From the NCBI GenBank assembly GCA_031275035.1, contig JAISPH010000031.1, forward strand, positions 1 to 17,977: a stretch of 17,977 bases of DNA, in the 5' to 3' direction. The translations under genes were made by a program, and so were the position numbers. The notes beneath the pieces are model-generated. The model did no database searches, was not told where the DNA came from, and saw only the letters and a list, made by a program, of their open reading frames with translations. Below are positions 1,674-16,672 of the stretch, piece by piece (position 1 is the stretch's first letter; each line of letters starts with the position of its first letter). Source of the DNA: Treponema sp. (GTDB taxonomy: Bacteria > Spirochaetota > Spirochaetia > Treponematales > Breznakiellaceae).

Positions 1674-1719
1674 GGCCCTTTCAAACGGCTCAATTTTGAA
1701 AAAGCGGCCTCAAGTTTTT
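1671..1719 (+). terminator. Likely intrinsic terminator at the nagA stop codon
   Basis: TGAGGCC, which includes the nagA stop codon, pairs perfectly with GGCCTCA (1706-1712). The hairpin extends inward through CTTT/AAAG and CAAA/TTTG with small bulges and a 9-nt loop, and is followed by AGTTTTT. It may partly uncouple nagB from nagA. The stem is imperfect, so it may be only a partial terminator. Confidence 0.55.
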
Positions 1720-1732
1720 AAGTGATTGTTGG

Positions 1733-1746
1733 CGAACCTTGGTTCG
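1733..1746 (+). promoter_or_regulatory. Palindrome upstream of nagB, possible operator
   Basis: CGAACC-TT-GGTTCG is a 6-bp inverted repeat with a 2-nt centre, about 50 bp before the nagB start and after the terminator-like hairpin. The spacing is too tight for a good RNA hairpin, so a protein-binding half-site pair is more plausible. No regulator can be named. Confidence 0.3.
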
Positions 1747-1796
1747 ACAGAAGCTGAAGTTTCCGGACAACTCTATTTTTTTATGAGGAAGGTTGT

Positions 1797-2582
1797 ATGC
1801 GTCTTATCATTCATAAGGATTATGAAAAGGCCTGTACCTGGACGGCCCGGTATATTGCAAACCGGATCAACAAATTTAACCCCGCCCCGGACAGGCCCTT
1901 TGTCCTTGGGCTGCCCACAGGATCAAGCCCCCTGGGAATCTACGGGGAACTTATACGGCTGTGGAAGGACCGGCAGATCTCATTTTCCCAGGTGGTTACC
2001 TTCAATATGGATGAATATGTGGGCCTCGGCGCGGAACATCCCCAGAGCTACCACTCGTTTATGTGGAATAACTTTTTCAGCCATGTGGACATCGATAAAA
2101 AGAACGTTCATATCCTGGACGGCATGGCCGGAGATCTGGAAGCCGAATGCAGGGCCTACGAGAATCGCATCGTCTCGTTTGGGGGGATAGAACTGTTCCT
2201 CGGCGGAATGGGCGCCGACGGCCACATTGCCTTTAACGAACCGGGATCTTCCCTCCATTCCCGGACCAGGGTAAAGACCCTTACCCGGAACACCCGGATT
2301 GCCAACGCCCGGTTCTTCGGGGGAGATCCCGAAGCGGTGCCCGCCACGGCCCTTACCGTGGGGGTGGGAACCATCATGGACGCCCGGGAGGCGCTTATCC
2401 TGGTAACCGGCCATGCCAAAGCCCGGGCGCTCCAGGCCGCCGTCGAAAACGGGATCAACCACATGTGGACCGCCTCCTGCCTGCAGACCCACCCCCGGGC
2501 GATCATTGTCTGCGACGAAGCGGCCACCGATGAATTAAAGGTCGGCACCGTGCGGTACTTCAGGGATATTGAAACCCCCTGA
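1797..2582 (+). CDS. nagB: Glucosamine-6-phosphate deaminase
   Basis: Isomerises and deaminates glucosamine-6-phosphate to fructose-6-phosphate and ammonia, feeding amino sugars into glycolysis downstream of NagA. The 261-residue length is typical. Family motifs are intact: phosphate-binding LPTGSSP (residues 39-45), FNMDEYVGL with the catalytic base Asp 72, and the [14 protein letters not shown] signature with Asp 141, His 143 and Glu 148. ATG 1797 follows a GAGGAAGG Shine-Dalgarno at 1785-1792, which fixes the start. An overlapping frame from 1726 has no family similarity and is a shadow. The 123-bp gap after nagA holds a terminator-like hairpin and a small palindrome, so nagB could be partly independent of nagA. 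Confidence 0.96.
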
Positions 2583-2623
2583 AGAACGGCCTCCGGAAAC
2601 AGAATCCGCTCTTAACCCCTTGG

Positions 2624-2651
2624 TTGACAAAGCCCTTCCCTTTTCTATAAT
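2624..2651 (+). promoter_or_regulatory. Near-perfect sigma-70 promoter for infA
   Basis: TTGACA at 2624-2629 and TATAAT at 2646-2651 are separated by 16 bp. Both hexamers match consensus exactly. Transcription would start near 2658, giving infA a leader of about 35 nt with a good ribosome binding site. Confidence 0.88.
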
Positions 2652-2693
2652 AGAAATGTCCGCAAAGGGACGAACGTAAACCAAGGAGTTACA

Positions 2694-2918
2694 GTGGCTA
2701 AAGAAGAAGCTATCGAAGTTGAAGGAGTCGTCAGAGAAGCTCTCCCCAATACCATGTTCAGGGTTGAGCTTGACAACCAGAACGGCCACCTTATACTAGC
2801 CCATCTTTCCGGCAAGATGCGCAAGCATTATATCCGCATAGTCCCCGGAGACCGGGTGCGGATTGCCCTTTCCCCCTACGATTTAAGCCGGGGCCGGATT
2901 ATATACCGGGAACGGTAA
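2694..2918 (+). CDS. infA: Translation initiation factor IF-1
   Basis: IF-1 occupies the ribosomal A site during initiation, working with IF-2 and IF-3. The 74-residue product is a single OB-fold. It shows the family pattern [17 protein letters not shown], then [19 protein letters not shown], then [19 protein letters not shown], essentially the whole conserved IF-1 core. The start is GTG at 2694, supported by AAGGAG at 2683-2688 and by the family N-terminus MAKEE. It is transcribed alone from a consensus promoter. It converges with the smr gene 44 bp downstream, and no clear terminator is seen between them. Confidence 0.97.
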
Positions 2919-2962
2919 AGTCCCGGCATCCCGCCCGCGGCAGCTTAATCCGCAGGAAAACT

Positions 2963-3457
2963 TCAGTCCTTCAGCAAAACCCAGGTGCTTCCCGTTCCTC
3001 CATCCCGGGCGCCGCCGTGTCCGCTTTCTCCCGCAAAGGGACAGCGTTCGATAAATTCCCTGGAGGCCCGCTTCAAAACCGCCTCACCCTCGGAGTGGTT
3101 TCCCTTTCCATGGATGATGAGCAGCTTTTCAAGACGCTGGCTCCGGGCATTGCGGAAAAAGCCGTCCATGACGATCCAGGCTTCATCTTTGGTAAGATTG
3201 TGGAGATCCAGCACCGCATCGGGTTTCTTTCTGAGCAGCCGGCGGCGGCGCTCCGCGGCGCAGATCTTGGGGTCTGCGGCGGAGACCGAATCTTCTGTTC
3301 CGGCATCCTTGTCGTAAACGCCCCCTCTTTGAAACGGCGGTTCTACAGCCCGCCCCGTTCCGGGGGAAGGTTCCGGCGGAGCCGTGGAATCCGTTTTTTC
3401 CGCGAAGGACCCCGCCGTCCGCCTGTCCCATTCGTCCAGAATAGATCCAAAGTCCAT
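2963..3457 (-). CDS. Smr-domain protein
   Basis: A 164-residue cytoplasmic protein. Residues 1-75 are low-complexity and charged; residues 82-164 form a Smr (small MutS-related) domain. Its two hallmarks are LDLHN (83-87, the LDxHG-type strand) and LLIIHGKGNHSEGEAVLK with HGKG at 116-119. Smr domains bind or nick branched DNA or act on RNA, and the substrate of this one is not evident. ATG 3457 has a GGTGAT element about 11 nt upstream, a weak ribosome site. The gene lies 41 bp after the batD stop on the same strand, so it is probably the last gene of the Bat operon transcript, although a functional link to Bat is not established. Confidence 0.82.
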   Translation of the reverse strand: MDFGSILDEWDRRTAGSFAEKTDSTAPPEPSPGTGRAVEPPFQRGGVYDKDAGTEDSVSAADPKICAAERRRRLLRKKPDAVLDLHNLTKDEAWIVMDGFFRNARSQRLEKLLIIHGKGNHSEGEAVLKRASREFIERCPFAGESGHGGARDGGTGSTWVLLKD

Positions 3458-3498
3458 GATAAACGTTCATCACCCCCGGCGGCTTAAAAGACAAGAGC

Positions 3499-4968
3499 CT
3501 AATAGTACACCAGATTTTCCCTAAGCACCCATCCGGCATTTCCCTCTGCAGATTCCACATAGACCCAAGAATCCGCCTCGGCCCGTACCACGGCGGGCAG
3601 TCCCTCGGGAAAACGGAACTCCTCCGTTCCCAGGACATCGGGCACCCGGTACGCCGTACAGGACCGCAGAACCGCCCTGGGAGCCCGGTCCAGAAACCTG
3701 TCCGCAAGGCCCGCCAGTCCCGCACAGAGGATCAGCGCCGATACCGCCAGTATGCATTTATAACACCAGGAACGGCCGGAGGTTACCCGTTTTTTCAGAT
3801 ATGTTATTCCCAGAATACCCGGGGGGATCGATGCGGCAATGATTACCAGGAGAAAGCGTACCGGGGGCCGCCGTTTTTCGTCCTCCGTGTCCGCTATGCC
3901 CAGAACCTGTTCCGCCTCCTGGCGGAGAGGCGCCAGGGTAAAACCGGCAAGACGATCCCCTTCGTTTTTACGGAGCAGCGCCAGGGCTTCGGGACGGCGG
4001 CCCTGATCCCACAGGGCCCGGGCCGCTCCGGCATTGCGGCGGTATGCGCCCCGGAACAAAAGGGGCGGCGGCCTTTCGGGAAAGGCTCCGGCGGTCCCGC
4101 CGGAAACCGCCGCCGAAACCACCGCTTCGGGGACGGCCCCGGAGGAAAGATCCGCCGCCCCGCCGCCGGCAGCGCCGGATAAACCCGTTTCCGTCTCTGC
4201 TTTATCCGGCGTTATCAGGATACGGATGCCGGGAATTTCCAGGTTAACGCCGCTGTAGTGGACATGGGGAAAAGTCAGGGAAAGATCCGTCTCCTCCAGG
4301 GGAATAATCCTGAGGCGGGAAACGATCCCCCGTTCCGCTTCCGGGGCGGAGACCGGCAGTTCTTCAAGTACCGCCTGTTCCATTGCCGCCAGGCTAAAGG
4401 AAAAACCGCCGGGCCGGGACAGCCGGGGGTCCCAATCGGAAAGGACCAGAGCCAGCTCGGCGGCCTCCCCCGTCCGAAATTCCATCCCTTCCCGAAGGGG
4501 CTCCGGCGGGGACAGCAATTCCCACTGCAGCCGGGGCCTGTACTCCCGGTCAATCCCGTCCTCCCGGCGGACCCGGAAAACCAGGGGCGATGTACGGGCC
4601 CTGTTGCCGGGGGTACTAATTTCAAAGGCATTGAGGAGAAATTCTCCGGCCCTGTGTGGAATAAAGGAAAACTCCACCGCAGTCCACCGTTCATTGGAAG
4701 CCCACCGGGCAAGGCGGGGCTCGGTACGGACCCGTTCCAAGGTAAGCGCCGGGGGCAGTTCCGGGGGGCGGACCGCAACCTCCGACGGGACCGGATGGGC
4801 CACCAGGATAGAAACCGTCCAGGGGGAACCGCGGACGGGATTTTCGGGAGAGGTCCATACCAGCACCGAAAGTTCCTTTCCGTACAGGGAAAGGGAATAG
4901 AGCAGGAGCAGACCTAGTAATCCGGGCCTAACGAAGAATCCGCCTCGGTCCATTCCCGGCTTTTCCAT
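3499..4968 (-). CDS. batD: BatD-like aerotolerance-operon protein with BatE/SH3-like C-terminus
   Basis: A 489-residue envelope protein. Residues 14-30 look like a signal or anchor segment (GLLGLLLLYSLSLYG). Residues 31-255 are a beta-rich exported region like BatD. Residues 259-300 are an Ala/Gly/Pro/Ser linker. Residues 305-358 are helical and TPR-like. Two membrane helices follow at about 371-391 and 405-423. Residues 433-489 look like a bacterial SH3 domain (AYRVPD...VRAEADSWVYVES...GWVLRENL). The last third resembles what I know of BatE, so this may be a BatD-BatE fusion. BatD-family proteins are thought to sit in the envelope with the vWA Bat proteins. ATG 4968 has an AAGGAG site 8 nt upstream, so the gene overlaps the batC end by 55 bp; Met 6 is a less likely start. 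Confidence 0.78.
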   Translation of the reverse strand: MEKPGMDRGGFFVRPGLLGLLLLYSLSLYGKELSVLVWTSPENPVRGSPWTVSILVAHPVPSEVAVRPPELPPALTLERVRTEPRLARWASNERWTAVEFSFIPHRAGEFLLNAFEISTPGNRARTSPLVFRVRREDGIDREYRPRLQWELLSPPEPLREGMEFRTGEAAELALVLSDWDPRLSRPGGFSFSLAAMEQAVLEELPVSAPEAERGIVSRLRIIPLEETDLSLTFPHVHYSGVNLEIPGIRILITPDKAETETGLSGAAGGGAADLSSGAVPEAVVSAAVSGGTAGAFPERPPPLLFRGAYRRNAGAARALWDQGRRPEALALLRKNEGDRLAGFTLAPLRQEAEQVLGIADTEDEKRRPPVRFLLVIIAASIPPGILGITYLKKRVTSGRSWCYKCILAVSALILCAGLAGLADRFLDRAPRAVLRSCTAYRVPDVLGTEEFRFPEGLPAVVRAEADSWVYVESAEGNAGWVLRENLVYY

Positions 4969-5513
4969 TGATCCTGCTCCTTTTCGCGGATATATTCAAA
5001 GAGGGTTTCATGTTTCCCGCCCCCGGAGATCTTCACCGGCGCTTCCGCCTCTACGCCGGCCCTGACCAGGGAGAGAAGGCTTAATTCCAGGTTCCGTTTC
5101 GCCTCAAGGCGGCTGCCGTCAAGTTCCAGGGCGCCCCTGAACTGTTCCGCCGCCCCGGCATAGTCTCCCTTCTCAAAGCGGATTACCCCGTTATTGTAGC
5201 GGATCCGGTACATCAGTTCCCGGTGGCCCTCCAGGGGCAGCAACCTGAGGGCTTCCTCCGCCGCAGCAAAACGTTCCCGGGCGGCGTTTCCTTCGTCAAG
5301 AGAGAGGTACACCAGGGCCAGGCCGTATTCCCCATAGGGTAGGGCCTGGGGAAAGCGGAGCGATTCCGTATAGGAGGCGATGGCCCTGGTGTAGAGACCC
5401 CGGGAATGGAAAAAATTTCCCTCCATAACGAGAAGCGGCCCGGCAAAACGGGAACAGCCTCCCAGCAGGGAAAACCCCCAGAGGAGGCCCCATAATTTAC
5501 CTTTTCCGGCCAT
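4914..5513 (-). CDS. batC: TPR lipoprotein of the Bat operon
   Basis: A 199-residue protein beginning MAGKGKLWGLLWGFSLLGGC. This is a short basic N-terminus, a hydrophobic stretch and a lipobox LGGC, with Cys 20 the probable lipidated residue. Three helical-repeat segments of about 34 residues follow at roughly 29-62, 63-96 and 105-138; the last (YNNGVIRFEKGDYAGAAEQF) is a clear TPR. The tail is charged. TPR proteins of this operon are taken to scaffold the vWA proteins. I chose ATG 5513 because GGAGAAAGG lies just upstream and a lipoprotein signal follows; the longer frame from 5636 has a Pro/Gly-rich N-terminus that is a shadow of batB. It overlaps the batB end by 17 bp and batD by 55 bp, so translation is probably coupled. 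Confidence 0.8.
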   Translation of the reverse strand: MAGKGKLWGLLWGFSLLGGCSRFAGPLLVMEGNFFHSRGLYTRAIASYTESLRFPQALPYGEYGLALVYLSLDEGNAARERFAAAEEALRLLPLEGHRELMYRIRYNNGVIRFEKGDYAGAAEQFRGALELDGSRLEAKRNLELSLLSLVRAGVEAEAPVKISGGGKHETLFEYIREKEQDQWKSREWTEADSSLGPDY

Positions 5514-6516
5514 ATCCTTTCTCCAAAAATTTTGCCGTCCCCAGGGCGGCAAGACCGGCGATAACAAAGAGATGCCACCGGGGCCGGGGCTCCCGCCGGT
5601 AACCCCGGGCGGTCCCGGCGGCGTCGATGGACGCAAGATGATTTATCAGGATCGATCCGGCGTCGCTCCTGCTGCCGTCCACATAGAAACCGCCGGTCCG
5701 TTCCGCGGCGCTGCGCAGGGTCCCGGCCCGCAGGCGGCTGAACACCGGAGCGCCGGTCCCGTCCTGAAGAATGTCCCCGTCCACAGGGACCGGCCCCCCC
5801 TCTTCGGAACCAAGTCCCAGGGCAATTACCTTGATATCCGCCGTCTTGGCCCGGTCCAGGGCGGCGTTGAGGGAGCCCGACAAGAGTTCTCCGTCGGAGA
5901 AGAGAATAATTTCCCGGCGGGTCGGCAGCGTATTTTGAAAGGCCGAACAGGCGGCGTCCAGAAGCTTCTCCAGATTGGTCCCCCTGCCGGTAACGGCGGA
6001 GCTGGACAGCGCATCGAGAAAGTTGATCACCGCTTCGGTATCGCCGGTAAGGGGAACCGCAAGAACGCCGCTTCCCTTGCCTATGGCAACGCCGAAGCGT
6101 ATCCCCGGCGAAGCACCTACCAACTCCCGGGCCACCGCCGCCCCCCGGCGTATCCGGGACAGGCCCTCCCCGCCGGGGATGCCCGGGGACAGAGGCAGGT
6201 CCTGTACGTCCATGCTGCGGGACAGATCCAGGGCCAGCACCACGTCAATTCCCCGGCGCATCTCCGGAACAATCCTGGTTCCCCAGCGGGGGCCCGCCAG
6301 GGCGGTAATCATCAAACATAAGAAGAGGACAAAGAAGAAAACCGAACAAATAAACCTGAGGCGGATCTCCCTGACCCCCTCCGCCAGGGCGGATTGGGAC
6401 AGGAGGCCCAATAGGCTCCTGCGCCGGTAATAATGGAAAAGAGCAATGCCGAAGGCGGGGATCGCAATAAAAAGGGCAAAGAGAAACCGGGGATTGTCAA
6501 AACCTATACCCTTCAT
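5497..6516 (-). CDS. batB: BatB-like von Willebrand factor A domain membrane protein
   Basis: A 339-residue membrane-anchored vWA protein. N-terminal helices at about 10-28 and 54-74 carry the BatA-type N-terminal region. The vWA domain (about 88-295) has a complete MIDAS: Asp 97, Ser 99 and Ser 101 in LDLSRSM, Thr 180 in GRGTN, and Asp 208 in FSDGE. A C-terminal helix lies near 314-328. MIDAS domains bind a divalent metal and a protein partner. Homologues form the Bacteroides aerotolerance (Bat) cluster, and a Borrelia vWA protein of this cluster has been reported as integrin-binding. The start ATG overlaps the stop of the preceding batA gene by 4 bp (ATGA), indicating translational coupling. 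No ancestral cut or frameshift is seen. Confidence 0.88.
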   Translation of the reverse strand: MKGIGFDNPRFLFALFIAIPAFGIALFHYYRRRSLLGLLSQSALAEGVREIRLRFICSVFFFVLFLCLMITALAGPRWGTRIVPEMRRGIDVVLALDLSRSMDVQDLPLSPGIPGGEGLSRIRRGAAVARELVGASPGIRFGVAIGKGSGVLAVPLTGDTEAVINFLDALSSSAVTGRGTNLEKLLDAACSAFQNTLPTRREIILFSDGELLSGSLNAALDRAKTADIKVIALGLGSEEGGPVPVDGDILQDGTGAPVFSRLRAGTLRSAAERTGGFYVDGSRSDAGSILINHLASIDAAGTARGYRREPRPRWHLFVIAGLAALGTAKFLEKGYGRKR

Positions 6517-7514
6517 AACAGCGCCCCCAGGATATAGCGGCGGATAAAACGGGCAAGGCAGAGGAGGATCAGGGCGGCGATGATGAAGGGCCGGTGAACG
6601 GAACGGGTTTTGGTTAAAAGCCCGGAACGGCGGATGATCATTTCCCCTTCGTGGAGCTGGGAAAAGGCTGCGGCAAAGGCCTGGGCGGAGGGCGCCGGCA
6701 GGTAGGTTCCTCCGGCCCTCCGGGCTATGGCCTTGAGGTTCTCCGGATCAAAGCGGGAATAGAAAGAACCGGTCCGGCGCATCCTGGTATGGGGGTCTAT
6801 ATAATCGATGGGAACTTCCCCGCTGCTGCCTACGCCGATTACCCAGAGGGAAATCCCCTCATCCCGCAGAACCGAGGCGGCGGTTTCGGGATGTACCGGT
6901 CCCGCATTATTCTCCCCGTCGGTGATCAGGACCACCACCTTTCTGGGGGCGGAGGATTTCCGCAGATGCAGGGCCGCCACCGAAAGACCGAGCCCCAGGG
7001 CGGTGCCGTCTCCCAGCTCGGCGATACGCAGGCTCTGGAGCCGGGAATCGAGGGCGCCCCTGTCCACCGTGGGGGGAATCAGAAGGGCTGCGCTGTCCCC
7101 CGCCGCCGCCAGTCCCACGGCGTCGGAGGGCCGTTCCCGGGCAAAGGCGGCGACCAGGTTTCTGGCGGCGTCAAAACGGTTTAGGCCGTCCATATCAAGT
7201 CCCGCCATGCTGGGGCTTACGTCCACCACAAAAAGTACGTCCGCCCCCCGGTTAAGCCATACCGTTTCGGAGCTGACCAGGTAAGGGCCGGAGGCGGCGA
7301 TAAAGAGAAACAGAGTCCCAGCCAGTTCCATGATAAAAATCAGTTTGATAAGAAGTTCAACCTTGAAGGGAGGAACAAAGGGACTTCCTCCGGGGGGGCC
7401 CAGGGGTATTTTCAGGGCGAAGGGATCTTTTACAAACCGGTTGATTCCCAGGATAAGGAGCCCCGTCAGCGCCGCCAGAAGGATCAGCAGGGGCCGTTCA
7501 AAACCGAGACTCAT
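6513..7514 (-). CDS. batA: BatA-like von Willebrand factor A domain membrane protein
   Basis: A 333-residue vWA protein with the same architecture as its neighbour batB: N-terminal helices at about 9-24 and 54-74, a vWA domain with intact MIDAS (Asp 98, Ser 100 and Ser 102 in VDVSPSM; Thr 171 in GDGTA; Asp 199 in ITDGENN), and a C-terminal helix near 313-331. The pair probably arose by an old duplication and may form a hetero-oligomer in the inner membrane with the domain facing the periplasm. The start overlaps the upstream stop by 4 bp (ATGA at 7511-7514), and the end overlaps batB by 4 bp. Its exact physiological function in spirochaetes is unsettled; the name reflects family and position only. 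Confidence 0.88.
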   Translation of the reverse strand: MSLGFERPLLILLAALTGLLILGINRFVKDPFALKIPLGPPGGSPFVPPFKVELLIKLIFIMELAGTLFLFIAASGPYLVSSETVWLNRGADVLFVVDVSPSMAGLDMDGLNRFDAARNLVAAFARERPSDAVGLAAAGDSAALLIPPTVDRGALDSRLQSLRIAELGDGTALGLGLSVAALHLRKSSAPRKVVVLITDGENNAGPVHPETAASVLRDEGISLWVIGVGSSGEVPIDYIDPHTRMRRTGSFYSRFDPENLKAIARRAGGTYLPAPSAQAFAAAFSQLHEGEMIIRRSGLLTKTRSVHRPFIIAALILLCLARFIRRYILGALL

Positions 7515-8539
7515 CGAAGTCCTCCGCCGCCGCGGGAAAACCGTTCCCCGGCGGAATACACGGCGCCCCCAGGGGACCCTCCGGTAATCCCGGCGGAAGC
7601 GGAAAGGGTCCTTTGTTTTTCGGCTTTTTCCAGGACGGATACAAAGTTCCTGATATCCTCCATAATACCGAGGATCGTCCCGCGATCGATGACGCCGCCG
7701 CTGAAACGGAGGGTGTCGCAGCGCCGGAAAAGATCCCGGAGAAAGCCGCCCGTACCGGACAGGGCCGTTTCCTCCTCCGGCGGAAACAGAGAAGACAGCC
7801 TCAGAAATTCTCCGGGAACCATGGCCCGGCAGTTCATCCCTGAAAAGCAGCTTAAAAAATTCCTAAACTCCAAAGATACCAGGGTCAGGGCCTCGCCTTC
7901 TCCGGTTTTATTCTTCCCCAGGGCAGAACGGACCCGCCGGAGTGTCCTCCACATATTCCGCAGCGCCCGCCGGCGCAGGCCGCGGGTCCGAAAATAATCC
8001 AGGTGATTTCTGTACCAGAACCCGCCAAAAACTGCCCCCAGGATGACGGCTATGACGGCAAAGACGGCGCCGTAAATGACCAGGACCGTACCGGGAACCG
8101 CCAACGGGGAGGCGGGGGGAGACAGAACCAGATCTTCATCGGATTCCAGTATGGACGTAACCCTTACCTCAAGCCCCGTAAAATTGCGGGAGGCGATTTC
8201 TACCGGAGGCAGGGGTATAAGCCCCGGCGCAAAGGCCTGAAAATCAATGAGCAGCCTGGCGTCCCCTCCCTGGCGGTCCAACTCCACCCGGGTAACGATC
8301 AGATCCTTTGCCTTGGGAAGATCTCCGGGCATGTCGAGGACAATATTCTTTCCCGGTGGGACGGCATCTTTCAACGGGCATACCAGCCGGCCCAGGTCTC
8401 CTACAAAGATGGTCTGGGGGATCATGTATGGCTCTGCGGGAGACCGGGACTCTGCCGGGACCGGCGGCTCCGAAACTTCCTGGGCGGCGGCGGAGACAAA
8501 AAGGCAGCTCAGACAGAAGAGGAGGAAGGACCGCCTCAT
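7511..8539 (-). CDS. Exported single-TM protein of the MoxR/Bat operon
   Basis: A 342-residue protein. Residues 1-19 form a signal peptide (MRRSFLLFCLSCLFVSAAA). Residues 20-148 are a beta-rich extracytoplasmic region, residues 149-174 a strong membrane helix, and residues 180-342 a basic helical cytoplasmic domain. The layout and position match the DUF4381-like or 'hypothetical' member between the DUF58 and vWA genes in MoxR operons, where Borrelia also has an unnamed gene. Sequence identity to a named family is not obvious to me. I start at ATG 8539: it begins the signal peptide and overlaps the DUF58 stop as ATGA, whereas the longer frame from 8623 adds a Gly/Arg-rich stretch inside the DUF58 gene. 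Confidence 0.75.
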   Translation of the reverse strand: MRRSFLLFCLSCLFVSAAAQEVSEPPVPAESRSPAEPYMIPQTIFVGDLGRLVCPLKDAVPPGKNIVLDMPGDLPKAKDLIVTRVELDRQGGDARLLIDFQAFAPGLIPLPPVEIASRNFTGLEVRVTSILESDEDLVLSPPASPLAVPGTVLVIYGAVFAVIAVILGAVFGGFWYRNHLDYFRTRGLRRRALRNMWRTLRRVRSALGKNKTGEGEALTLVSLEFRNFLSCFSGMNCRAMVPGEFLRLSSLFPPEEETALSGTGGFLRDLFRRCDTLRFSGGVIDRGTILGIMEDIRNFVSVLEKAEKQRTLSASAGITGGSPGGAVYSAGERFSRGGGGLR

Positions 8540-9411
8540 AGACGGCTCCGTCCGCCGAAGAAGCGCTTCAGGACCGCCGGCGCATCCGCGGCGGTGGAAA
8601 GTTCCGCCGCCGCAACGCCGCAACGGCGGCAGGCGGCCTTCCAGTAATTGGCCCGTTCCTCATGCCACTCGGCCCACGCCTTTTGAAAGGACGGGAAAGC
8701 TGCAGGAACGTGGAGGCGCAGCCCCGTTTCCGGGTCCTCCATGGCGATAAGCCCCGCGCCGGGGATTGCAAGATCCAGGGGGGAGGAGACCCGCAGGGCG
8801 ATCACATCGTGGCGGCGGGAAAGATCCCCCAGCTCCTCCTCCCAGTTAAGGCAGAGAAAATCCGAAATAACCGTTACCAGGCTCCGGCGCTTGAGCAGCC
8901 TCCCCGTCCCCCTGAGGGCCGCCCCAAGGCCGCTTCCCCTTCCCCGGGCCTCCCCCTGCAGGGCGGCGCTTATTACCGCCATAATATGGGCCCGTCCCTT
9001 CCGGGGTGAAAAGATCGTACCCAGCTCCCGATCAAAGAAAACCGCCCCCACCCGCTGGCCCGAACTTTCCGCGGAAAAGGCGATCAGGGCGGCGGCAAGT
9101 ACCCCCTGTTCGTAACGGCTCAAAGCTCCGCCGCCCCCGGTGTGCATGGAAGCGGAGCCGTCCAGTACAATGCAGACCGTCAATTCCCGCTCTTCCCGGT
9201 ACATCTTTACATAGGGAGTTCCAAAACGGGCGCTTACATTCCAGTCAATGGAGCGTACATCATCGCCAAGCTCATAATGCCTGACCTCATCAAACTCAAT
9301 ACCCTGGCCCTTAAAAACAGAACGGAAATCCCCCGAGAGCAGATCCTCCGCCAGCCCCGAAGCAATCAGGGGAAAGGTGGTAATTTTTTGCAGAAGTTCA
9401 TGCCTGTCCAT
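8536..9411 (-). CDS. DUF58 domain protein of the MoxR operon
   Basis: A 291-residue, apparently soluble protein. The DUF58 signature is nearly ideal: KGQGIEFDEVRHYELGDDVR, then IDWNVSARFGTPYVKMYREERELTV (residues 34-79). It is followed by a vWA-like LDGSASM with Asp 84, Ser 86 and Ser 88, so a MIDAS-type metal site may be kept. DUF58 proteins almost always follow a MoxR ATPase and are thought to be its partner or client. The gene starts 132 bp after the moxR stop, a long gap for this otherwise overlapping operon, and that gap is filled by two hairpins. The ribosome site is weak (GGGA a few nucleotides before ATG 9411). The next gene overlaps by 4 bp. Confidence 0.9.
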   Translation of the reverse strand: MDRHELLQKITTFPLIASGLAEDLLSGDFRSVFKGQGIEFDEVRHYELGDDVRSIDWNVSARFGTPYVKMYREERELTVCIVLDGSASMHTGGGGALSRYEQGVLAAALIAFSAESSGQRVGAVFFDRELGTIFSPRKGRAHIMAVISAALQGEARGRGSGLGAALRGTGRLLKRRSLVTVISDFLCLNWEEELGDLSRRHDVIALRVSSPLDLAIPGAGLIAMEDPETGLRLHVPAAFPSFQKAWAEWHEERANYWKAACRRCGVAAAELSTAADAPAVLKRFFGGRSRL

Positions 9412-9456
9412 GTTTTCCCATAACTTTGAACGGATTGGGGGTCCGAAACTTTTTAT

Positions 9457-9497
9457 GGGAACTTCCGGAAACCCGGCCGGGGCTTTCGGAGGTTCCC
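9457..9497 (-). promoter_or_regulatory. Long hairpin between moxR and the DUF58 gene
   Basis: Bases 9457-9474 pair with 9480-9497: 17 of 18 positions pair (two as G-T), with a 5-nt GGCCG loop. Neither strand has a T-run after the stem, so it is not an ordinary intrinsic terminator. In the moxR-DUF58 mRNA it would sit about 45 nt before the DUF58 start codon and could act in mRNA processing, in protection, or in differential expression of the ATPase versus downstream genes. Confidence 0.7.
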
Positions 9498-9503
9498 CTC
9501 TGT

Positions 9504-9529
9504 ATGGTCATGTCCTTTGGACAGACCAT
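9504..9529 (-). promoter_or_regulatory. Second hairpin just after the moxR stop
   Basis: ATGGTC (9504-9509) and TGTCC (9511-9515) pair with GGACA (9519-9523) and GACCAT (9524-9529): 11 bp with one bulged A and a TTT loop. It lies 14 nt past the moxR stop in transcript direction and stands in tandem with the larger 9457-9497 hairpin. No T-run follows. Confidence 0.6.
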
Positions 9530-9543
9530 CCGTGGATACGCCC

Positions 9544-10548
9544 CTAGGGTACCGGAACAAAGGCCAGAATCCTGGAGATAACCCCGTCCGGGTCCAGGCC
9601 GTCCGCCTCCGCCTCATAGGAAAGAACAATCCGGTGCCGCAAAACCGGAAGGGTTACTGCCTTTACATCCTCGGGGCTTACAAAGGAACGGCCCGCAAAG
9701 AGCGCGGCAATACGGCTGCAGCGGTGCAGGGCGATAGAAGCCCGGGGCGAAGCGCCGAAGGAAATGTACCGGTAAACCCCCTCTTTTACGGCGGCGTCCC
9801 CGGAGACGGGCCTGGTGGCGGCCGCCACCGAAACAATGTACCGGGTGATCCGCTCGTCGATCCTCACCGCATCCGCAGCGGCCCGGAGTTCCCCCAGGGT
9901 CTCTGCGGGCAGAACCGTCCCCAGGGGCCTGAGGGCCTGCCGTCCCCTGGAAATAGGGGCGGAAAAGTCCAGGACCCGGATCTCCTCCTCGTGGCTGGGA
10001 TAACGGATCAGCAGTTTGAGGAGAAAGCGATCCAGCTCCGCCTCGGGCAGCGCATAGGTTCCCTCATGTTCAATCGGGTTCTGGGTGGCCAGCACAAAAA
10101 AAGGCTCCGGCAGGGAATAGCTTTTTTCGCCGATGGTAACCTGCCGTTCTTCCATGGCCTCAAGCAGGGCGGACTGGACCTTGGCCGGCGCACGGTTGAT
10201 CTCATCCGCCAGGATCACATTGGCGAACACCGGTCCCCGGCGTACCGAAAAGGTCCCCGAAGATTGTTCCCAGATCAGGGTTCCGGTAAGATCCGCCGGA
10301 AGCAGATCCGGGGTAAACTGAATCCGCTTAAACGCCAGTCCCGTAATGTCCGCCAGGCTCTTTATGGCCAGGGTCTTCGCCAGTCCCGGCACCCCTTCCA
10401 GCAGCACATGGCCGCCGGCGATAAGGGCCATAAGGAGGCCGTCTATCATCTCTCCCTGACCGACAATGCGTTTGGCCAGTTCCTGCCGGGCGGCATTTAA
10501 AAACCCAAGGCATCTGCCCAGGCGGGTATCCCCACTGTTTTCACCCAT
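9544..10548 (-). CDS. MoxR-family AAA+ ATPase
   Basis: A 334-residue cytoplasmic AAA+ ATPase of the MoxR class, thought to act as a chaperone that assembles or activates vWA-domain partners, here the DUF58 and Bat proteins. Motifs: Walker A EGVPGLAKT (residues 51-59), Walker B VILADEINRAP with Asp 115 and Glu 116, the MoxR-typical KVQSALLEAMEERQVT, sensor 1 ATQNP (154-158), and the PEAELDRF arginine region (168-175). All ATPase residues look intact. It is first in the leftward operon. ATG 10548 has no Shine-Dalgarno, but a TAGAAT -10 sits 6 nt before it, so the mRNA may be leaderless. The transcript diverges from the aminotransferase gene, with 101 bp between the two starts. Confidence 0.95.
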   Translation of the reverse strand: MGENSGDTRLGRCLGFLNAARQELAKRIVGQGEMIDGLLMALIAGGHVLLEGVPGLAKTLAIKSLADITGLAFKRIQFTPDLLPADLTGTLIWEQSSGTFSVRRGPVFANVILADEINRAPAKVQSALLEAMEERQVTIGEKSYSLPEPFFVLATQNPIEHEGTYALPEAELDRFLLKLLIRYPSHEEEIRVLDFSAPISRGRQALRPLGTVLPAETLGELRAAADAVRIDERITRYIVSVAAATRPVSGDAAVKEGVYRYISFGASPRASIALHRCSRIAALFAGRSFVSPEDVKAVTLPVLRHRIVLSYEAEADGLDPDGVISRILAFVPVP

Positions 10549-10554
10549 GACTTT

Positions 10555-10584
10555 ATTCTAACCCCGAAGGGGGACGGATAGCAA
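10555..10584 (-). promoter_or_regulatory. Probable promoter of the moxR-bat operon
   Basis: On the reverse strand TTGCTA (10579-10584) and TAGAAT (10555-10560) are 18 bp apart, and the -10 ends 6 nt before the moxR ATG. Each hexamer keeps the key consensus bases. The spacer contains a small palindrome, CCCC-GAA-GGGG (10562-10572), which could be an operator. Confidence 0.55.
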
Positions 10585-10615
10585 TATTTCAGTCCGAAGG
10601 CGGAATCCCATGGCA

Positions 10616-10646
10616 TTGACACAGGGGCCTATTCTCATGACATAGT
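10616..10646 (+). promoter_or_regulatory. Possible promoter of the aminotransferase gene
   Basis: A perfect TTGACA (10616-10621) stands 19 bp before CATAGT (10641-10646), a weak -10; ACATAG at 18 bp is an alternative. The start codons ATGATG follow within 3-6 nt, with no Shine-Dalgarno between. Confidence 0.5.
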
Positions 10647-10649
10647 GGC

Positions 10650-11963
10650 ATGATGAACAGTCCTGCAAGTGAACTCAACCTTGTGCTTGAAGGAACCGTC
10701 GCGGGGCGGCTCCTGTCCCAGCTGGGCCGGCGTCTGTACTTTCCCAATGGTATCATTGCCCAATCTGCAGAAGCAAAAAAAGCCGCCCATAAAGCCAATG
10801 CCACCATAGGCATGGCCTATAGCGGCGGCCAGCCGATGATTCTCTCCGCCATTGCCGAAAGCATGCCTTCCCTCGGAGCGGAGGCGGCCGTGGCCTACGC
10901 TCCGACCGCAGGGCTGGAACAGGCCCGGGAAGCCTGGAAGGATCTGGTCCTTCAGAAAAACCCTTCCGTCAATACCGGCCACATTTCTCTGCCCGTGGTG
11001 ATTCCGGGCCTTACCGCCGGGCTTTCCTATACGGCGGATCTCTTCCTTGAAGCGGGAAAGACCATCCTGACCAGCGATCCCTGCTGGGACAATTACGGGC
11101 TGATCTTCGCCGGACGCCGGGAGGCGGATCTGCGGGGGATTCCCTTCTTCGGCAACGGCTCCCCCCGGGGGACCATTACCCCCGGCCTGGATATGGAAAC
11201 CATAATCCGGGCCGTCGGGGAAAGCGCCAAAACCGGAACGGTCAGGCTTATCCTCAACTTCCCCAACAATCCCTCGGGCTATTCCCCCACCTGTTCCGAA
11301 ACGGACGCGCTGGTACAATGTATCCGGGAGGCCGCCGAGGGAGGGGCGGACGTACTGATAATCTGCGACGACGCCTACTTTGGCCTTTTTTATGAGGATG
11401 AGATCAACAAGGAATCCCTCTTTGGCCGTTTTGCATCCCTCCATGAACGGATTTTGGCCATAAAGATCGACGGCCATATAAAGGAAGATTACGGCTGGGG
11501 GCTCAGGATGGGATTTCTTACCTTCGGTTCCCTGGGCCTGGGGCCGGAACACCACGAAGCCCTGGTCAAAAAGATGATGGGGGCGATCCGTTCCTCCGTT
11601 TCATGCGCCAATACCCCGGCCCAGCACTTTATGCTCAAGGCCATGGAGGACCCCCGGACCGGGGTGGAGAAGGACCGGTACTACGAAATACTCCGCCGCC
11701 GCTACCGGACGGTCAAAGACTTTATCGAAAAAAACCCCGAACATCCCCGGCTCAAGCCTCTTCCCTTCAACTCGGGCTACTTTATGAGTTTCCGCTGCGT
11801 GGGCATCGACGCCGAAGCGCTCCGGCGGGAGCTCCTGTCCAAAGAGGGAATAGGCGTCATAGCCTTGAGTGCGGACTACCTGAGGATAGCTTTTGCCGGC
11901 ATGGAAGAGGAGCAGATCCCCGGAGTTTACCGGATCATTTACGATACGGCGTCGAAGTTATAG
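10650..11963 (+). CDS. Fold-type I PLP-dependent aminotransferase
   Basis: A 437-residue aminotransferase class I/II protein that would move an amino group between an amino acid and a 2-oxo acid using pyridoxal phosphate. Visible PLP-site residues: Asn 207 in LNFPNNPSGY, Asp 240 and Tyr 243 in ICDDAYFGLFY, and Lys 278 in IKEDYGWGLRMGF, spaced eight residues before Arg 286 as in the SK...G.R.G motif. The usual serine before the lysine is replaced (HIK). The C-terminal FNSGYFMSF stretch is like aspartate/aromatic aminotransferases. Amino-acid specificity cannot be read. It is monocistronic, divergent from moxR and convergent with the next gene 16 bp away. ATG 10650 or 10653 may start a leaderless mRNA. 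Confidence 0.88.
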   Translation: MMNSPASELNLVLEGTVAGRLLSQLGRRLYFPNGIIAQSAEAKKAAHKANATIGMAYSGGQPMILSAIAESMPSLGAEAAVAYAPTAGLEQAREAWKDLVLQKNPSVNTGHISLPVVIPGLTAGLSYTADLFLEAGKTILTSDPCWDNYGLIFAGRREADLRGIPFFGNGSPRGTITPGLDMETIIRAVGESAKTGTVRLILNFPNNPSGYSPTCSETDALVQCIREAAEGGADVLIICDDAYFGLFYEDEINKESLFGRFASLHERILAIKIDGHIKEDYGWGLRMGFLTFGSLGLGPEHHEALVKKMMGAIRSSVSCANTPAQHFMLKAMEDPRTGVEKDRYYEILRRRYRTVKDFIEKNPEHPRLKPLPFNSGYFMSFRCVGIDAEALRRELLSKEGIGVIALSADYLRIAFAGMEEEQIPGVYRIIYDTASKL

Positions 11964-11979
11964 AACCGCCGCCGGAATA

Positions 11980-12465
11980 TTATCCGCCTATAAGCTGGCG
12001 GCCCACATCCTTTAGTTCCGGCATCTGGACATAAAGGGGCATGTGTCCCTTTGCGTCCATTTTGTCCATTTCCACCAATTTAACGTACAACTCGTTGATG
12101 AGGTCCGCAAAAACCTGTAAATTTGAAGCAAAATTGTTGATGGCCATGTCCCGAAGCACCTTGTTGGGACCGGTAACGGCGGGAATACTGGAACGGCTCC
12201 GCAGGCCCGGCACCAGATCCCGGCGGACCACCGAGACAAAACGGGCGCAGGCGGCTATCTGGCGGTATAATTCATCCAGGTGAAAACCCTGATAGCGGAA
12301 TTGTTCGACCTTTTCCGCAAGGATATCGATTAAATCCCAGGTTGCCTTATCCAGAGGCATTTGTAGCAGCGCCGGCCGTATATACTGGTTATAAATATTC
12401 GTCCGGTAATGCTCGCTGATCTGCTCTATTAACCTGACAATATGGGCGTCCCGTATTGGCTGCAT
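11980..12465 (-). CDS. Unrecognised helical protein
   Basis: A 161-residue protein I cannot assign. It is predicted soluble, almost entirely helical, with no signal peptide, membrane segment or metal motif. Aromatic and charged residues are spread evenly, as in a real protein (ISEHYRTNIYNQYIRPALL near the start, LQVFADLINELYVKLVEMDKMD near the end). Codon use is like its neighbours. Its own promoter (TTGTAA, 17 bp, TATTAT) lies directly upstream, and ATG 12465 comes 6 nt after the -10. A GGAGG occurs about 14 nt before the ATG, but inside the promoter spacer, so it would not be transcribed. The gene converges with the aminotransferase and diverges from the next small gene. Probably a spirochaete-lineage conserved protein. 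Confidence 0.7.
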   Translation of the reverse strand: MQPIRDAHIVRLIEQISEHYRTNIYNQYIRPALLQMPLDKATWDLIDILAEKVEQFRYQGFHLDELYRQIAACARFVSVVRRDLVPGLRSRSSIPAVTGPNKVLRDMAINNFASNLQVFADLINELYVKLVEMDKMDAKGHMPLYVQMPELKDVGRQLIGG

Positions 12466-12471
12466 TATTCT

Positions 12472-12500
12472 ATAATACTCCTCCCGAAACCGATTTACAA
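12472..12500 (-). promoter_or_regulatory. Promoter of the leftward unrecognised gene
   Basis: On the reverse strand TTGTAA (12495-12500), a 17-bp spacer and TATTAT (12472-12477) precede ATG 12465 by 6 nt. The geometry implies transcription starting at or next to the start codon. Confidence 0.6.
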
Positions 12501-12573
12501 GCTCCCGAAAAGAAAATCACGCTAAAATTTTCCCCGTCGATTCCGATACTGTAATTAGAGAAGGAGCGCTACC

Positions 12574-12966
12574 ATGACCCATGGGATTATGTCGGTAACC
12601 GCTTTTCCCAGTGTTGGATACGCAATCAGCGCCTCCCTGGGGGGCAGAATGTCCCTGCCCGTGGCTCCTTCCAGCCTTATCTATTCCCATTTTGAACATG
12701 TTTCCGGCGTTCCCGCCCCCGATGGCAGCCGGGGGGTTACCATCAACAAGCTGAAAATCCTGAATGTGCTTATTGAACAGCTGGGACAGATCAAAAAACA
12801 GCCCCAGAACGCCGGATCTGCGGGCCCCCTCTCCGATGAACGGATAGACGCCCTCATCGAACAGTACGAGAGCCAGATACGCTCCGCCCGGGCCGCCAGC
12901 GCCGCCATGCCCTATAAGCCCCGGCCCGCCGCCCCCCTGGGCGCTGTGTTCAGCCTGGTAGCCTGA
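12574..12966 (+). CDS. Unrecognised small protein
   Basis: A 130-residue protein with no family I recognise. The N-terminal 30 residues are Ala/Gly/Ser-rich and mildly hydrophobic but lack a clear signal peptide. The middle (about 57-77) is an amphipathic helix (INKLKILNVLIEQLGQIKK), followed by a Gly/Ala break and a second charged helix (DERIDALIEQYESQIR, about 88-103). The C-terminus is Pro/Ala-rich. AAGGAG lies about 9 nt before ATG 12574, a strong ribosome site, so the start is firm. A weak TGTAAT -10 is visible at 12550-12555. It is divergent from the leftward unrecognised gene by 108 bp and followed by the repeat-bearing 513-bp gap. Helix-loop-helix shape could suit a small oligomer, but that is inference. 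Confidence 0.65.
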   Translation: MTHGIMSVTAFPSVGYAISASLGGRMSLPVAPSSLIYSHFEHVSGVPAPDGSRGVTINKLKILNVLIEQLGQIKKQPQNAGSAGPLSDERIDALIEQYESQIRSARAASAAMPYKPRPAAPLGAVFSLVA

Positions 12967-13123
12967 AGGTACGCCAGCCGGCCCGTAAACGCAAAATCCG
13001 GCCCATTGCATGCAGAAAGAAAAGAGAGGGCTTACCCTGCCCATCTTTGTTTGTGAAATTCCTGTGGGCGGACCAAAGATCCGGCGTCGTTTTACCGGCG
13101 CCGGACGCCTCGTTTGCGCCGAT

Positions 13124-13271
13124 GCATATAGACGCTATTCGCCTAACCGGCCCTTTCTTGGCATATATACGCAGTTCGTCTAATCGGCCCTTTCCCGGTG
13201 TATATACGCAGTTCGCATATATCGACCCCTACCTGCATATAGACGCAATTCGCATATATCACCGCCCTCAG
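13124..13271. repeat. Tandem array, four 37-bp units with palindromic core
   Basis: Units start at 13124, 13161, 13198 and 13235, exactly 37 bp apart. Each has a core of about 26 bp reading GCATATANACGCANTTCG followed by CATATATC or a decayed version, then about 11 bp of C-rich linker. The core is an imperfect palindrome: in unit 4, ATATAGACG faces CGCATATAT around CAATT, with 7 of 9 arm positions symmetric. Units 1 and 2 share the linker CGGCCCTTTC, and units 3 and 4 keep the full right arm. A period of 37 is not a multiple of three, so this is not a coding repeat. It may be a protein-binding array or a decayed repeat family. Confidence 0.85.
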
Positions 13272-13293
13272 CGATATGTATTGCGTATATATC
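13272..13293. repeat. Diverged fifth repeat, probably inverted
   Basis: GATATGTATTGCGTATATATC resembles the reverse complement of the 37-bp unit core with about three bases lost. It directly abuts the fourth unit. Because the core is palindromic, orientation is uncertain. Confidence 0.5.
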
Positions 13294-13353
13294 TCCGCCG
13301 CCCCCGTCCCGCCGCCAAACCCGCCCCCCTCCATGCCGGATTGTGCCCGCAGG

Positions 13354-13379
13354 GCGGCGGCAAGGACGCCGCTGTTTTT
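13354..13379 (+). terminator. Possible weak intrinsic terminator
   Basis: GCGGCG (13354-13359) pairs with CGCCGC (13367-13372) around a 7-nt loop, followed by TGTTTTT. It lies almost 390 bp past the nearest rightward gene, so its role is doubtful. Confidence 0.35.
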
Positions 13380-13399
13380 AGGTCATAATCCGCCCCCCG

Positions 13400-13436
13400 G
13401 CATATAGACGTAGTTCGTATATATCGCCGCCCCGCC
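13400..13436. repeat. Distant sixth copy of the 37-bp repeat
   Basis: GCATATAGACGTAGTTCG, then TATATATC and a C-rich tail, matches the array consensus over the whole core. It is 165 bp from unit 4, out of register with the 37-bp period, and about 45 bp from the ecfT stop. Its separation shows that the unit can occur alone. Confidence 0.75.
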
Positions 13437-13479: not shown

Positions 13480-14244
13480 CTACAGTTCCAGTCCCCGCGC
13501 TTCCAGGGCCGCCGCCGTTTCCGCCGCGGCCTCGATCATCGTCTCGACCGCCAGGGGTATGAGCAACAAAAGCATTGCCGGGCCCCGCTTTCCCATCCGG
13601 GCCTTATAGGCAAGGCCGGCGTTTTCCCAGATCAAAAAAAACCGGGGCAGAAAACCCATCATCAGGGCGATCCCCAGGCTGAGCCGGGGATATTCCAGCC
13701 GCCGGACCAGACTGAGGGCCGGAGGTCTGCCGCTTTTTTTCAGCATAACGATGAGGGGTTTCAGGATCGCCCCTTCCCCCCGGCCAAGGGAATCCCGAAT
13801 CTCCACCATGGTGGTAACCGAAAAGAGAAGCCCCCCGGCGGCGAAAGAGACGAGGACGCCCCCGGCAAAACGGAGGCTCTCCATAAAACCGGCGCCGCTG
13901 AAAAAAACCCCCGGCGGCGTCCTCCCGGTAAAGAGTCCTCCCAGGAGTTCCCCCGCCGGTCCGGCATGGGCCGGAAATTGTACCGTTCTGATGATTCCCG
14001 TAAAGATCAACAGCGCCGCCAGGGGCCGGCTCCCCCGGAGCAGCTCCCAGGGCCGTCGTCCTGCGGCAACGGCCCCGGCGCTTACCGCCAAAGCCGCCGC
14101 CCCCAGGGCGGGGGGGCCAAAGAAGAAACAGCCTGCGGAGATGACGAGGAGCAGAACCAGTTTAAGCCCCGCCGGAAGACGGTGGAGGCAGCTTGCGCCG
14201 GAATGGTACTGCCAGGGAAGGGACCGGAATTTCAGTCGAGCCAT
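13480..14244 (-). CDS. ecfT: ECF transporter transmembrane coupling protein, biotin system
   Basis: A 254-residue integral membrane protein that couples ATP hydrolysis by EcfA to the substrate-binding subunit BioY (also called BioN in dedicated biotin systems). Several hydrophobic helices are visible at about 25-60, 73-85, 118-145, 190-208 and 222-238. The C-terminus carries ALEARG (246-251), the Ala-Arg-Gly coupling motif, and YKARMGKRG around 212-220 may be the second coupling region. Length fits EcfT. It is last in the birA operon and overlaps the ecfA end by 13 bp. No clear terminator follows; the nearest structure is the repeat region. Whether it is biotin-specific or shared with other S components cannot be decided, though its place in this operon favours biotin. 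Confidence 0.88.
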   Translation of the reverse strand: MARLKFRSLPWQYHSGASCLHRLPAGLKLVLLLVISAGCFFFGPPALGAAALAVSAGAVAAGRRPWELLRGSRPLAALLIFTGIIRTVQFPAHAGPAGELLGGLFTGRTPPGVFFSGAGFMESLRFAGGVLVSFAAGGLLFSVTTMVEIRDSLGRGEGAILKPLIVMLKKSGRPPALSLVRRLEYPRLSLGIALMMGFLPRFFLIWENAGLAYKARMGKRGPAMLLLLIPLAVETMIEAAAETAAALEARGLEL

Positions 14245-15640: not shown

Positions 15641-16672
15641 TTATATCCGCAGTGACGCCGAACCGGGGGCATAGGGGATGATTCCCCGGCCGCCTTTAAC
15701 GAGCCCCCGGCCCTGGCTGTCTATTCCCAGGAAGGTTCCCCTTTCCAGCGTTTTTTCCCCGGCGCCGTGATCCGGGGCTATCACCCGTACCTGACGGCCT
15801 ATGACGCCGGCGGATCTGTTCCACCCTTTTTTCAGATCCGCGGGATTCAGGGCGAGGGTACTCTCCAGGGTATCGAGGAATTTGAGAAGCAGCTCCCTCC
15901 GGGAGAGGGGATGTCCCGCCGCCTCCGCGCAGGCCGCCGTCCCCGGCGGGGTTTTATTGACATTGACCCCTATGCCGATGGCGATCCACCGTATCCTGTC
16001 TCCCGCCCCGGAAAGTTCCGTCAGGATTCCCGCCGCCTTTTTCCCCCGGAGGTATACATCGTTGGGCCAACGGAGCTGCGCCGGGATGCCGCATATCTCC
16101 GTTATGGTTATGCCCAGGGTCAGATGGGCCGCCGTTACCAGCCGGGTATAATCGGCAATCCCCAGATTGGGCCTCTCCACCAGGGTAAAGAAAAGGCCCC
16201 CCCTTGGGGAGGACCAGGCTCTTCCGTTTCTGCCCATCCCGGCGGTCTGGGTTTCCGCGGCGATCACCGTCCCGCCGGGGACTCCCCGTTCCGCCAGTTC
16301 CCTGGCCCGGTTCATGGTACTGTCGGTGCTTTCCCAGTGGTAGAAATGGGATATGCCGGGAAATTCCCAGGGATAGAGAAAATCATCCCCCGGACGGGTC
16401 AGGGCATAACCCCGTTCTTCCGTCTTTACCGGATACCCCGCCTCCTTCAAAGATCTCAGAGCCTTCCAGACCGCCACCCGGGAAACGCCCAGGGCCGCGG
16501 CCAGGCTTTCCCCGGAGGTAAAGCCGTCCTCCGCCCGTTCCCGGAGCAGCTCCAGAAGCCGCCCCTTCACGGCGCGCCCCCTGGGGCCGCCGGATCTCTG
16601 CCGCCCGGACTTCTCCCCGATGTTGCCCCCGCCCGCATTCCGCGGACGCCCTTCCGCTTTTTCGTTAACCAT
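15641..16672 (-). CDS. birA: Bifunctional biotin-protein ligase and biotin repressor
   Basis: Joins biotin to carrier proteins through biotinyl-AMP and, as a class II enzyme, also represses transcription. The 343 residues comprise a basic Gly-rich extension (1-33), a winged-helix DNA-binding domain (about 35-92, recognition region SRVAVWKALRSLKEAGY), a catalytic domain with ESTDSTMNRA, the biotinyl-AMP loop GMGRNGRAW (145-153; usually GRGRxGRxW, so one Arg is Met) and LRWPNDVYLRGKKAAGILTEL (200-220), and a C-terminal SH3-like domain. ATG 16672 lacks a Shine-Dalgarno. GTG 16570 (Val 35), preceded by AGGGGG, is a possible alternative start that would remove the extension. It leads the operon with bioY, ecfA and ecfT. 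An inverted repeat over its promoter and codons 1-4 suggests autoregulation. Confidence 0.93.
   Translation of the reverse strand: MVNEKAEGRPRNAGGGNIGEKSGRQRSGGPRGRAVKGRLLELLRERAEDGFTSGESLAAALGVSRVAVWKALRSLKEAGYPVKTEERGYALTRPGDDFLYPWEFPGISHFYHWESTDSTMNRARELAERGVPGGTVIAAETQTAGMGRNGRAWSSPRGGLFFTLVERPNLGIADYTRLVTAAHLTLGITITEICGIPAQLRWPNDVYLRGKKAAGILTELSGAGDRIRWIAIGIGVNVNKTPPGTAACAEAAGHPLSRRELLLKFLDTLESTLALNPADLKKGWNRSAGVIGRQVRVIAPDHGAGEKTLERGTFLGIDSQGRGLVKGGRGIIPYAPGSASLRI

Follow-up and report, generated by a model that had tools for sequence, protein, structure and literature searches.

A palindromic repeat array in a Treponema intergenic gap, probably one locus of a dispersed repeat family in termite-gut relatives

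A short array of palindromic repeats in a gap between two Treponema genes raises the question of whether regularly spaced units form a binding array for a protein or represent one locus of a wider repeat family. The window analyzed here is the whole stretch of 17,977 nucleotides, and the array lies in a gene-free gap between two convergent ORFs. The array is real and its layout is confirmed (Table 1), with four units exactly 37 bp apart, an inverted unit and an isolated copy, as the first-pass annotation had described. Start-to-start spacing runs 37, 37, 37 and 35 bp, and the separate copy follows 130 bp further on. Tandem Repeats Finder recovers a period of 37 with 3.5 copies and a score of 139. 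A search for the core pattern allowing up to three mismatches finds six matches in the window, including the separate copy read on the reverse strand, against a shuffle mean of 0.18, and none of 200 shuffles reaches six. The four 37-mers share only 20-30 of 37 bases in pairwise comparison (54-81%), and the 37-bp spacing has thus outlasted the sequence. The proposed contrast of an A/T-rich core in very GC-rich DNA holds for the cores, which are AT-rich, and is limited to them, the spacers being C-rich.

Table 1. Features of the repeat array and its surroundings, in positions of the window.
Feature	Position	Strand	Remark
Upstream convergent gene	12574..12966	+	Without Pfam or NCBIfam match
Tandem unit 1 (class A)	13124..13160	+	37-bp register
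Tandem unit 2 (class A)	13161..13197	+	
Tandem unit 3 (class A)	13198..13234	+	
Tandem unit 4 (class A)	13235..13269	+	Adjoins the inverted unit directly
Inverted diverged unit, array end	13270..13296	-	
Terminator-like hairpin and T run	13353..13380	+	Between array and separate copy
Separate copy, palindrome intact	13399..13428	+	Fold test
Downstream convergent gene, EcfT-like	13480..14244	-	Without Pfam or NCBIfam match of its own

An ORF of 113 aa spans the array (13047-13388) and is probably not a gene because 37 bp is not divisible by three. CRISPR was rejected in agreement with the first reading of the locus, as the repeats diverge while the spacers are alike and no cas-like family occurs among the 11 window proteins scanned. 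The palindromic nature of the core is convincing in the separate copy, which has a DNA fold z of -3.9 with none of 200 shuffles as good, and fails in the rest of the array. Compared with shuffles, neither the tandem units (z +0.2 to +0.45 for all four) nor the inverted unit (z -0.5) has any folding advantage. Since this concerns five of the six window units, the tandem units may be remnants of an old array in decay, next to a single copy that has stayed intact.

Copies of the repeat occur in the genomes of relatives. The closest relative found is Treponema sp. Im510_bin16 (G001, represented at this locus by L001), with 91% protein identity for the aminotransferase at 10650-11963, compared with at most 67% in the next relatives. 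G001 is largely co-linear with window positions 822-12967 (main segments at 82-95% DNA identity); the alignment ends where the gene preceding the array ends, and past that point only a 149-bp piece at 17054 aligns. R1, a model built from sequence alone on 25 units of the window and G001, has 21 matches in G001, including the model's own members, on seven contigs and some in tandem. As R1 was partly built from G001 units, independent support comes from the pattern search. The class A core, with up to three mismatches, matches ten times on contigs C17 and C97, and a sister unit class B, GGAAGTAAAGCGAATGCGTGTTACATCC, seven times (six exact) on C17, C97 and C95; reversed-pattern controls gave zero for both. 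The two classes alternate on C17 and C97, and identical cores are found on two contigs. A second model (R2, below) adds one unit on C2, and the gap orthologous to the array, downstream of the ortholog of the gene at 12574-12966, holds one class B/C-like unit (L001 12369-12395, E 0.0019 in 39 kb). Nine G001 loci in total carry copies of the family, those on C92 and C51 being single copies. On C95, an RlmM-like gene (below the NCBIfam cut-off for RlmM, FtsJ-like according to Pfam) extends at its end into the first unit and takes its stop codon from it. Inverted units terminate both the window array (13270-13296) and the G001 array on C17 (L066 2503-2534), with different neighboring genes and ATGTATTGCGTATAT common to both.

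The genomes G108 and G109, of the same family as G001, carry many copies of a third class C, GGATTTAAAGCGCATTCGCTTTAAATCC, in arrays located both between genes and in frame within genes. R2, a structure model of 27 class C-type units with members from G001, G108 and G109, matches these three genomes among 195 of the family (E <= 0.001) and again these three among 390 of the order (E <= 0.0001). Scoring in both searches covered only the 19-38 best candidates of each genome, which makes absence elsewhere provisional. R1 has no match at E <= 0.01 in 22 other Treponema-type genomes, where two weak singles reach E 0.017 and 0.023. Over the 195 family genomes, R1 finds G001 and four weak singles (G099, G108, G109 and G187). 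Both models detect only sequences closely related to their own, and unit classes that differ in the arms would escape. Upon re-examination, the single in G099 (L103 1504-1534) is class A-like with a convincing palindrome (z -2.9), and a single in G002 (L080 1502-1531) is class A-like with a partial palindrome (z -2.2); the singles in G021 and G187 are doubtful, with z of -1.5 and -0.6, respectively. Because the G099 single and, less surely, the G002 single are palindromic, the family probably extends beyond the three array-bearing genomes. Likeness among the class A, B and C consensus units goes beyond that in composition shuffles (0 of 1000 for each), and arm-paired shuffles match it in 3, 1 and 0 of 1000 cases, respectively.

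Across these genomes, the unit is an imperfect palindrome of about 28 bp with variable arms and a conserved center close to CGCA(A)TTCG. Folding surpasses that of shuffles in five units of G001, G108 and G109 (z -2.8 to -7.1) and is only weak in the unit from the orthologous G001 gap (z -1.5). Class C units show no covariation beyond shuffles, and no consensus structure was predicted for class A units. Rfam gave no match at gathering cut-offs, and a distant blastn search of plasmids and phages with the G001 C17 array gave none either. Thirty stretches in viral contigs exactly match a loose pattern in which 15 bases are specified and were taken as chance (L125 alone was inspected); the class C pattern has no match in viral contigs. 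No description of the repeat family was recognized in the literature searched, in which subscription journals were thinly covered. The termite-gut Treponema MAG L019 carries different tandem arrays at 139-550 and 15724-16308, the first partly palindromic and of GTGAGAGCGACTCTCAC type, and L020 has yet another tandem repeat.

Copies are mostly located between genes in the window and in G001, and about half of the loci seen in G108 and G109 are in genes. Eight of the 15 G108/G109 loci examined are of this kind and form four gene pairs, whose orthology was assigned by sequence; a contig edge cuts two of the G108 genes. The hosts are an RluA-family pseudouridine synthase, with copies between the S4 and catalytic domains; TsaC/Sua5, with copies within the Sua5_C region; an Rsm22-like methyltransferase; and an NrdG-like radical-SAM activase, with copies directly after the CxxxCxxC motif. 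Copy number differs in three of the four pairs, with 7 vs 5 in the Rsm22-like pair, 3 vs 6 in the activase pair and 1 vs 2 in the TsaC pair. The further TsaC relatives P0243 and P0245 have 3 and 6 copies and are known from protein alone, from which we infer the DNA palindromes. Another TsaC protein, P0248, has eight tandem 12-aa repeats of DLTCDRNKPAGV type in its protein sequence, at a site that differs from G108 and G109. The genes holding units or ending in them (L102, L104, L169, L171, L173, L153 and L067) mostly encode RNA-modification enzymes (RluA, TsaC/Sua5, Rsm22-like and RlmM-like), the radical-SAM activase being the exception; this trend is post hoc and the cases are few.

The class C unit is open in one frame only, as DLKRIRFKS or its reverse-strand form, and all five copies with a computed phase use this DLKRIRFKS-type frame. 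The activase uses another frame (GFKANALKS type), in which the 28-nt form has a stop. All five matched units of the G109 activase are 27 nt long, with steps of 54, 51, 54 and 54 nt, as are two of three units in the G108 activase, and the RluA and TsaC copies tested have units of 28 nt. Units of 27 nt also occur twice outside genes (G001 C2 and L001), and the fit of unit length to frame may thus reflect selection among existing variants. A broader reading, which we put forward tentatively and judge somewhat less probable than its negation, is that the repeats form a spirochaete family of mobile hairpin micro-satellites that would spread into intergenic sites and also, in frame, into housekeeping enzymes, where they would expand by steps of codon size and lengthen loops and linkers, similar to Rickettsia palindromic elements (RPE) with added tandem growth.

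The first-pass annotation had preferred an array of binding sites for a dimeric DNA protein, such as a nucleoid, segregation or replication factor. On that view, dispersal would mean many sites. The dyad-like core is most conserved near its center and the window keeps its exact 37-bp spacing despite the divergence of the units, as such a function would lead one to expect. Outside genes, however, spacing is array-specific, at 36-46 bp in G001 and 39-53 bp in G108 and G109, with a range from 35 to 53 bp over all arrays, and it varies within arrays as well as between them; in-gene steps reach up to 60 nt. A fixed helical phase is not a trait of the repeat family, which argues against a helical-phase binding array. 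Relatives carrying copies inside coding genes, the restriction of class C model matches to three genomes in both searches given above, and the lack of any window match to parS-like or DnaA-box patterns also weigh against this proposal, and we regard a binding array as unlikely.

Hairpins acting on RNA, by ending transcription or protecting 3' ends between convergent genes, could account for the copies between convergent ORFs in the window, on G001 C144 and C2 and on the L001 contig, as well as for those located after an ORF on C97 and C95. Yet in G001 the largest array, on C17, is flanked by divergent ORFs, the stems are AT-rich and without a T run, the window tandem units fold poorly and relatives have copies in genes. 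Terminator-like sites number two in a 701-bp region, compared with a shuffle mean of 0.5 (sd 0.9), and the terminator-like site of the gap lies outside the units. An RNA-level element is therefore improbable. Purely local slippage without any wider family would explain the tandem register, and the lack of copies elsewhere had been named as the mark of such a local chance expansion. Copies were found, at the nine G001 loci and in G108 and G109, which refutes this explanation for the relatives and makes it hardly tenable overall.

The dispersed and tandem copies in relatives support what had been the alternative suggestion, a BIME-like repeat family of spirochaetes with tandem expansion. The array is most likely one locus of a dispersed, self-spreading and locally multiplying palindromic repeat family in some termite-gut Treponema, presumably without a host function. 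Single copies might arise at new sites by a copying process involving some enzyme or template switching. From these copies, head-to-tail arrays would grow or contract locally, most likely through replication slippage or unequal recombination aided by hairpins in single-stranded DNA. Copies in genes might be tolerated where the unit has an open reading frame. No mobilizing enzyme was found among Y1 transposases, of which G001 and G108 have one match each and G109 none, and the flanks examined around the two genes (L078 and L199) contain no R1 or R2 match. A transposase link was rejected, as 19 of the 28 searched genomes in which no arrays were found have Y1 matches, compared with two of the three array-bearing genomes. 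Four related genomes (G028-G031) have 33-97 Y1 matches each, far above the repeat-bearing genomes. As regards MITEs, which are defined by terminal inverted repeats with a target duplication, a palindrome is present here, but no empty site was identified from which a duplication could be read.

Several known repeat systems resemble the family. We liken it to REP/BIME and RPE and assign it to neither because the tag and transposase criteria tested fail. REPs are imperfect palindromes of 20-40 bp, often 3' of genes and some within genes (PMC3733652; PMC2817692), and the units of 27-30 bp fall within this range. By fold, imperfect palindromes comprise the separate window copy and the five units of G001, G108 and G109, but not the other five window units or the L001 unit. 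In contrast to REP/BIME, the repeat lacks a GTAG tag, no unit-flanked RAYT or transposase gene was found, and the order is mostly direct tandem. In the 6 nt beside 64 units, GTAG occurs once upstream and never downstream, as does CTAC. Fewer copies were found than the more than 100 usual for REP (PMC2817692).

RPE and CGTC repeats are short palindromes able to sit in frame within unrelated genes (PMC3733652; PMC10969869). The in-frame copies in unrelated genes (the eight genes in four G108/G109 pairs) resemble these, with none seen in the window. RPEs are about 150 bp long (PMC10969869), unlike the units of 27-30 bp in head-to-tail arrays. CGTC repeats have loops of 4-5, are said to be without a dedicated transposase and are mostly head-to-head dimers, grouped elements being rare except in Neisseria and Wolbachia (PMC3733652), whereas the arrays described here are head-to-tail. 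No consistent CGTC-type end tag was found beside the 64 units (upstream/downstream: CGTC 0/6, TGTC 2/1, CCTC 0/0; reverse complements GACG 1/0, GACA 4/0, GAGG 5/0). There may nevertheless be a link, because CGTC repeats are reported in Spirochaetes, with the species unnamed in the text (PMC3733652). Dispersed non-coding satellites of Leptospira interrogans form tandem-repeat families at several intergenic sites, with periods of 37 and 46 nt as interpreted from the family codes (PMC6749651). Compared by description only, they share a spirochaete host, intergenic tandem families and the 37-nt period. Similarly by description, PARCEL repeats are palindromic tandem repeats inside coding sequence (PMC2996958), and the family differs in having one unit type also between genes and in several unrelated enzymes.

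The gene order around the array has changed among relatives. The ortholog of the gene at 12574-12966 adjoins a PEPCK gene in all seven relatives' loci holding both, with gaps of 104-196 bp, and is inverted in three of them. At the PEPCK position, the window has EcfT-like, ATPase, BioY and BirA genes, and G001 has an acetate kinase gene before PEPCK. The EcfT-like gene is so named solely from its position beside the genes for an ECF-type ATPase, BioY and biotin ligase; for its protein, G108 has a single match and G001 and G109 have none. Arrays as a rearrangement hotspot causing such breaks are not claimed because in four other loci (L019, L020, L021 and L023) the ortholog occurs with neither PEPCK in the sequence examined nor any R1 or R2 match. 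An intergenic element of about 45 bp lies before nagB in the window (1733-1777) and, inverted, after nagB in G001 (L001 1806-1850), and is possibly another small mobile repeat.

Rickettsia provides the best-known cases of palindromic repeats that enter coding genes in frame. Among the related Treponema genomes, this kind of element is seen both singly and in tandem arrays, and both in intergenic positions and within genes, with copy-number differences between orthologs. Such variety among relatives makes the gain of copies, their loss and their tolerance in proteins testable by strain comparison.
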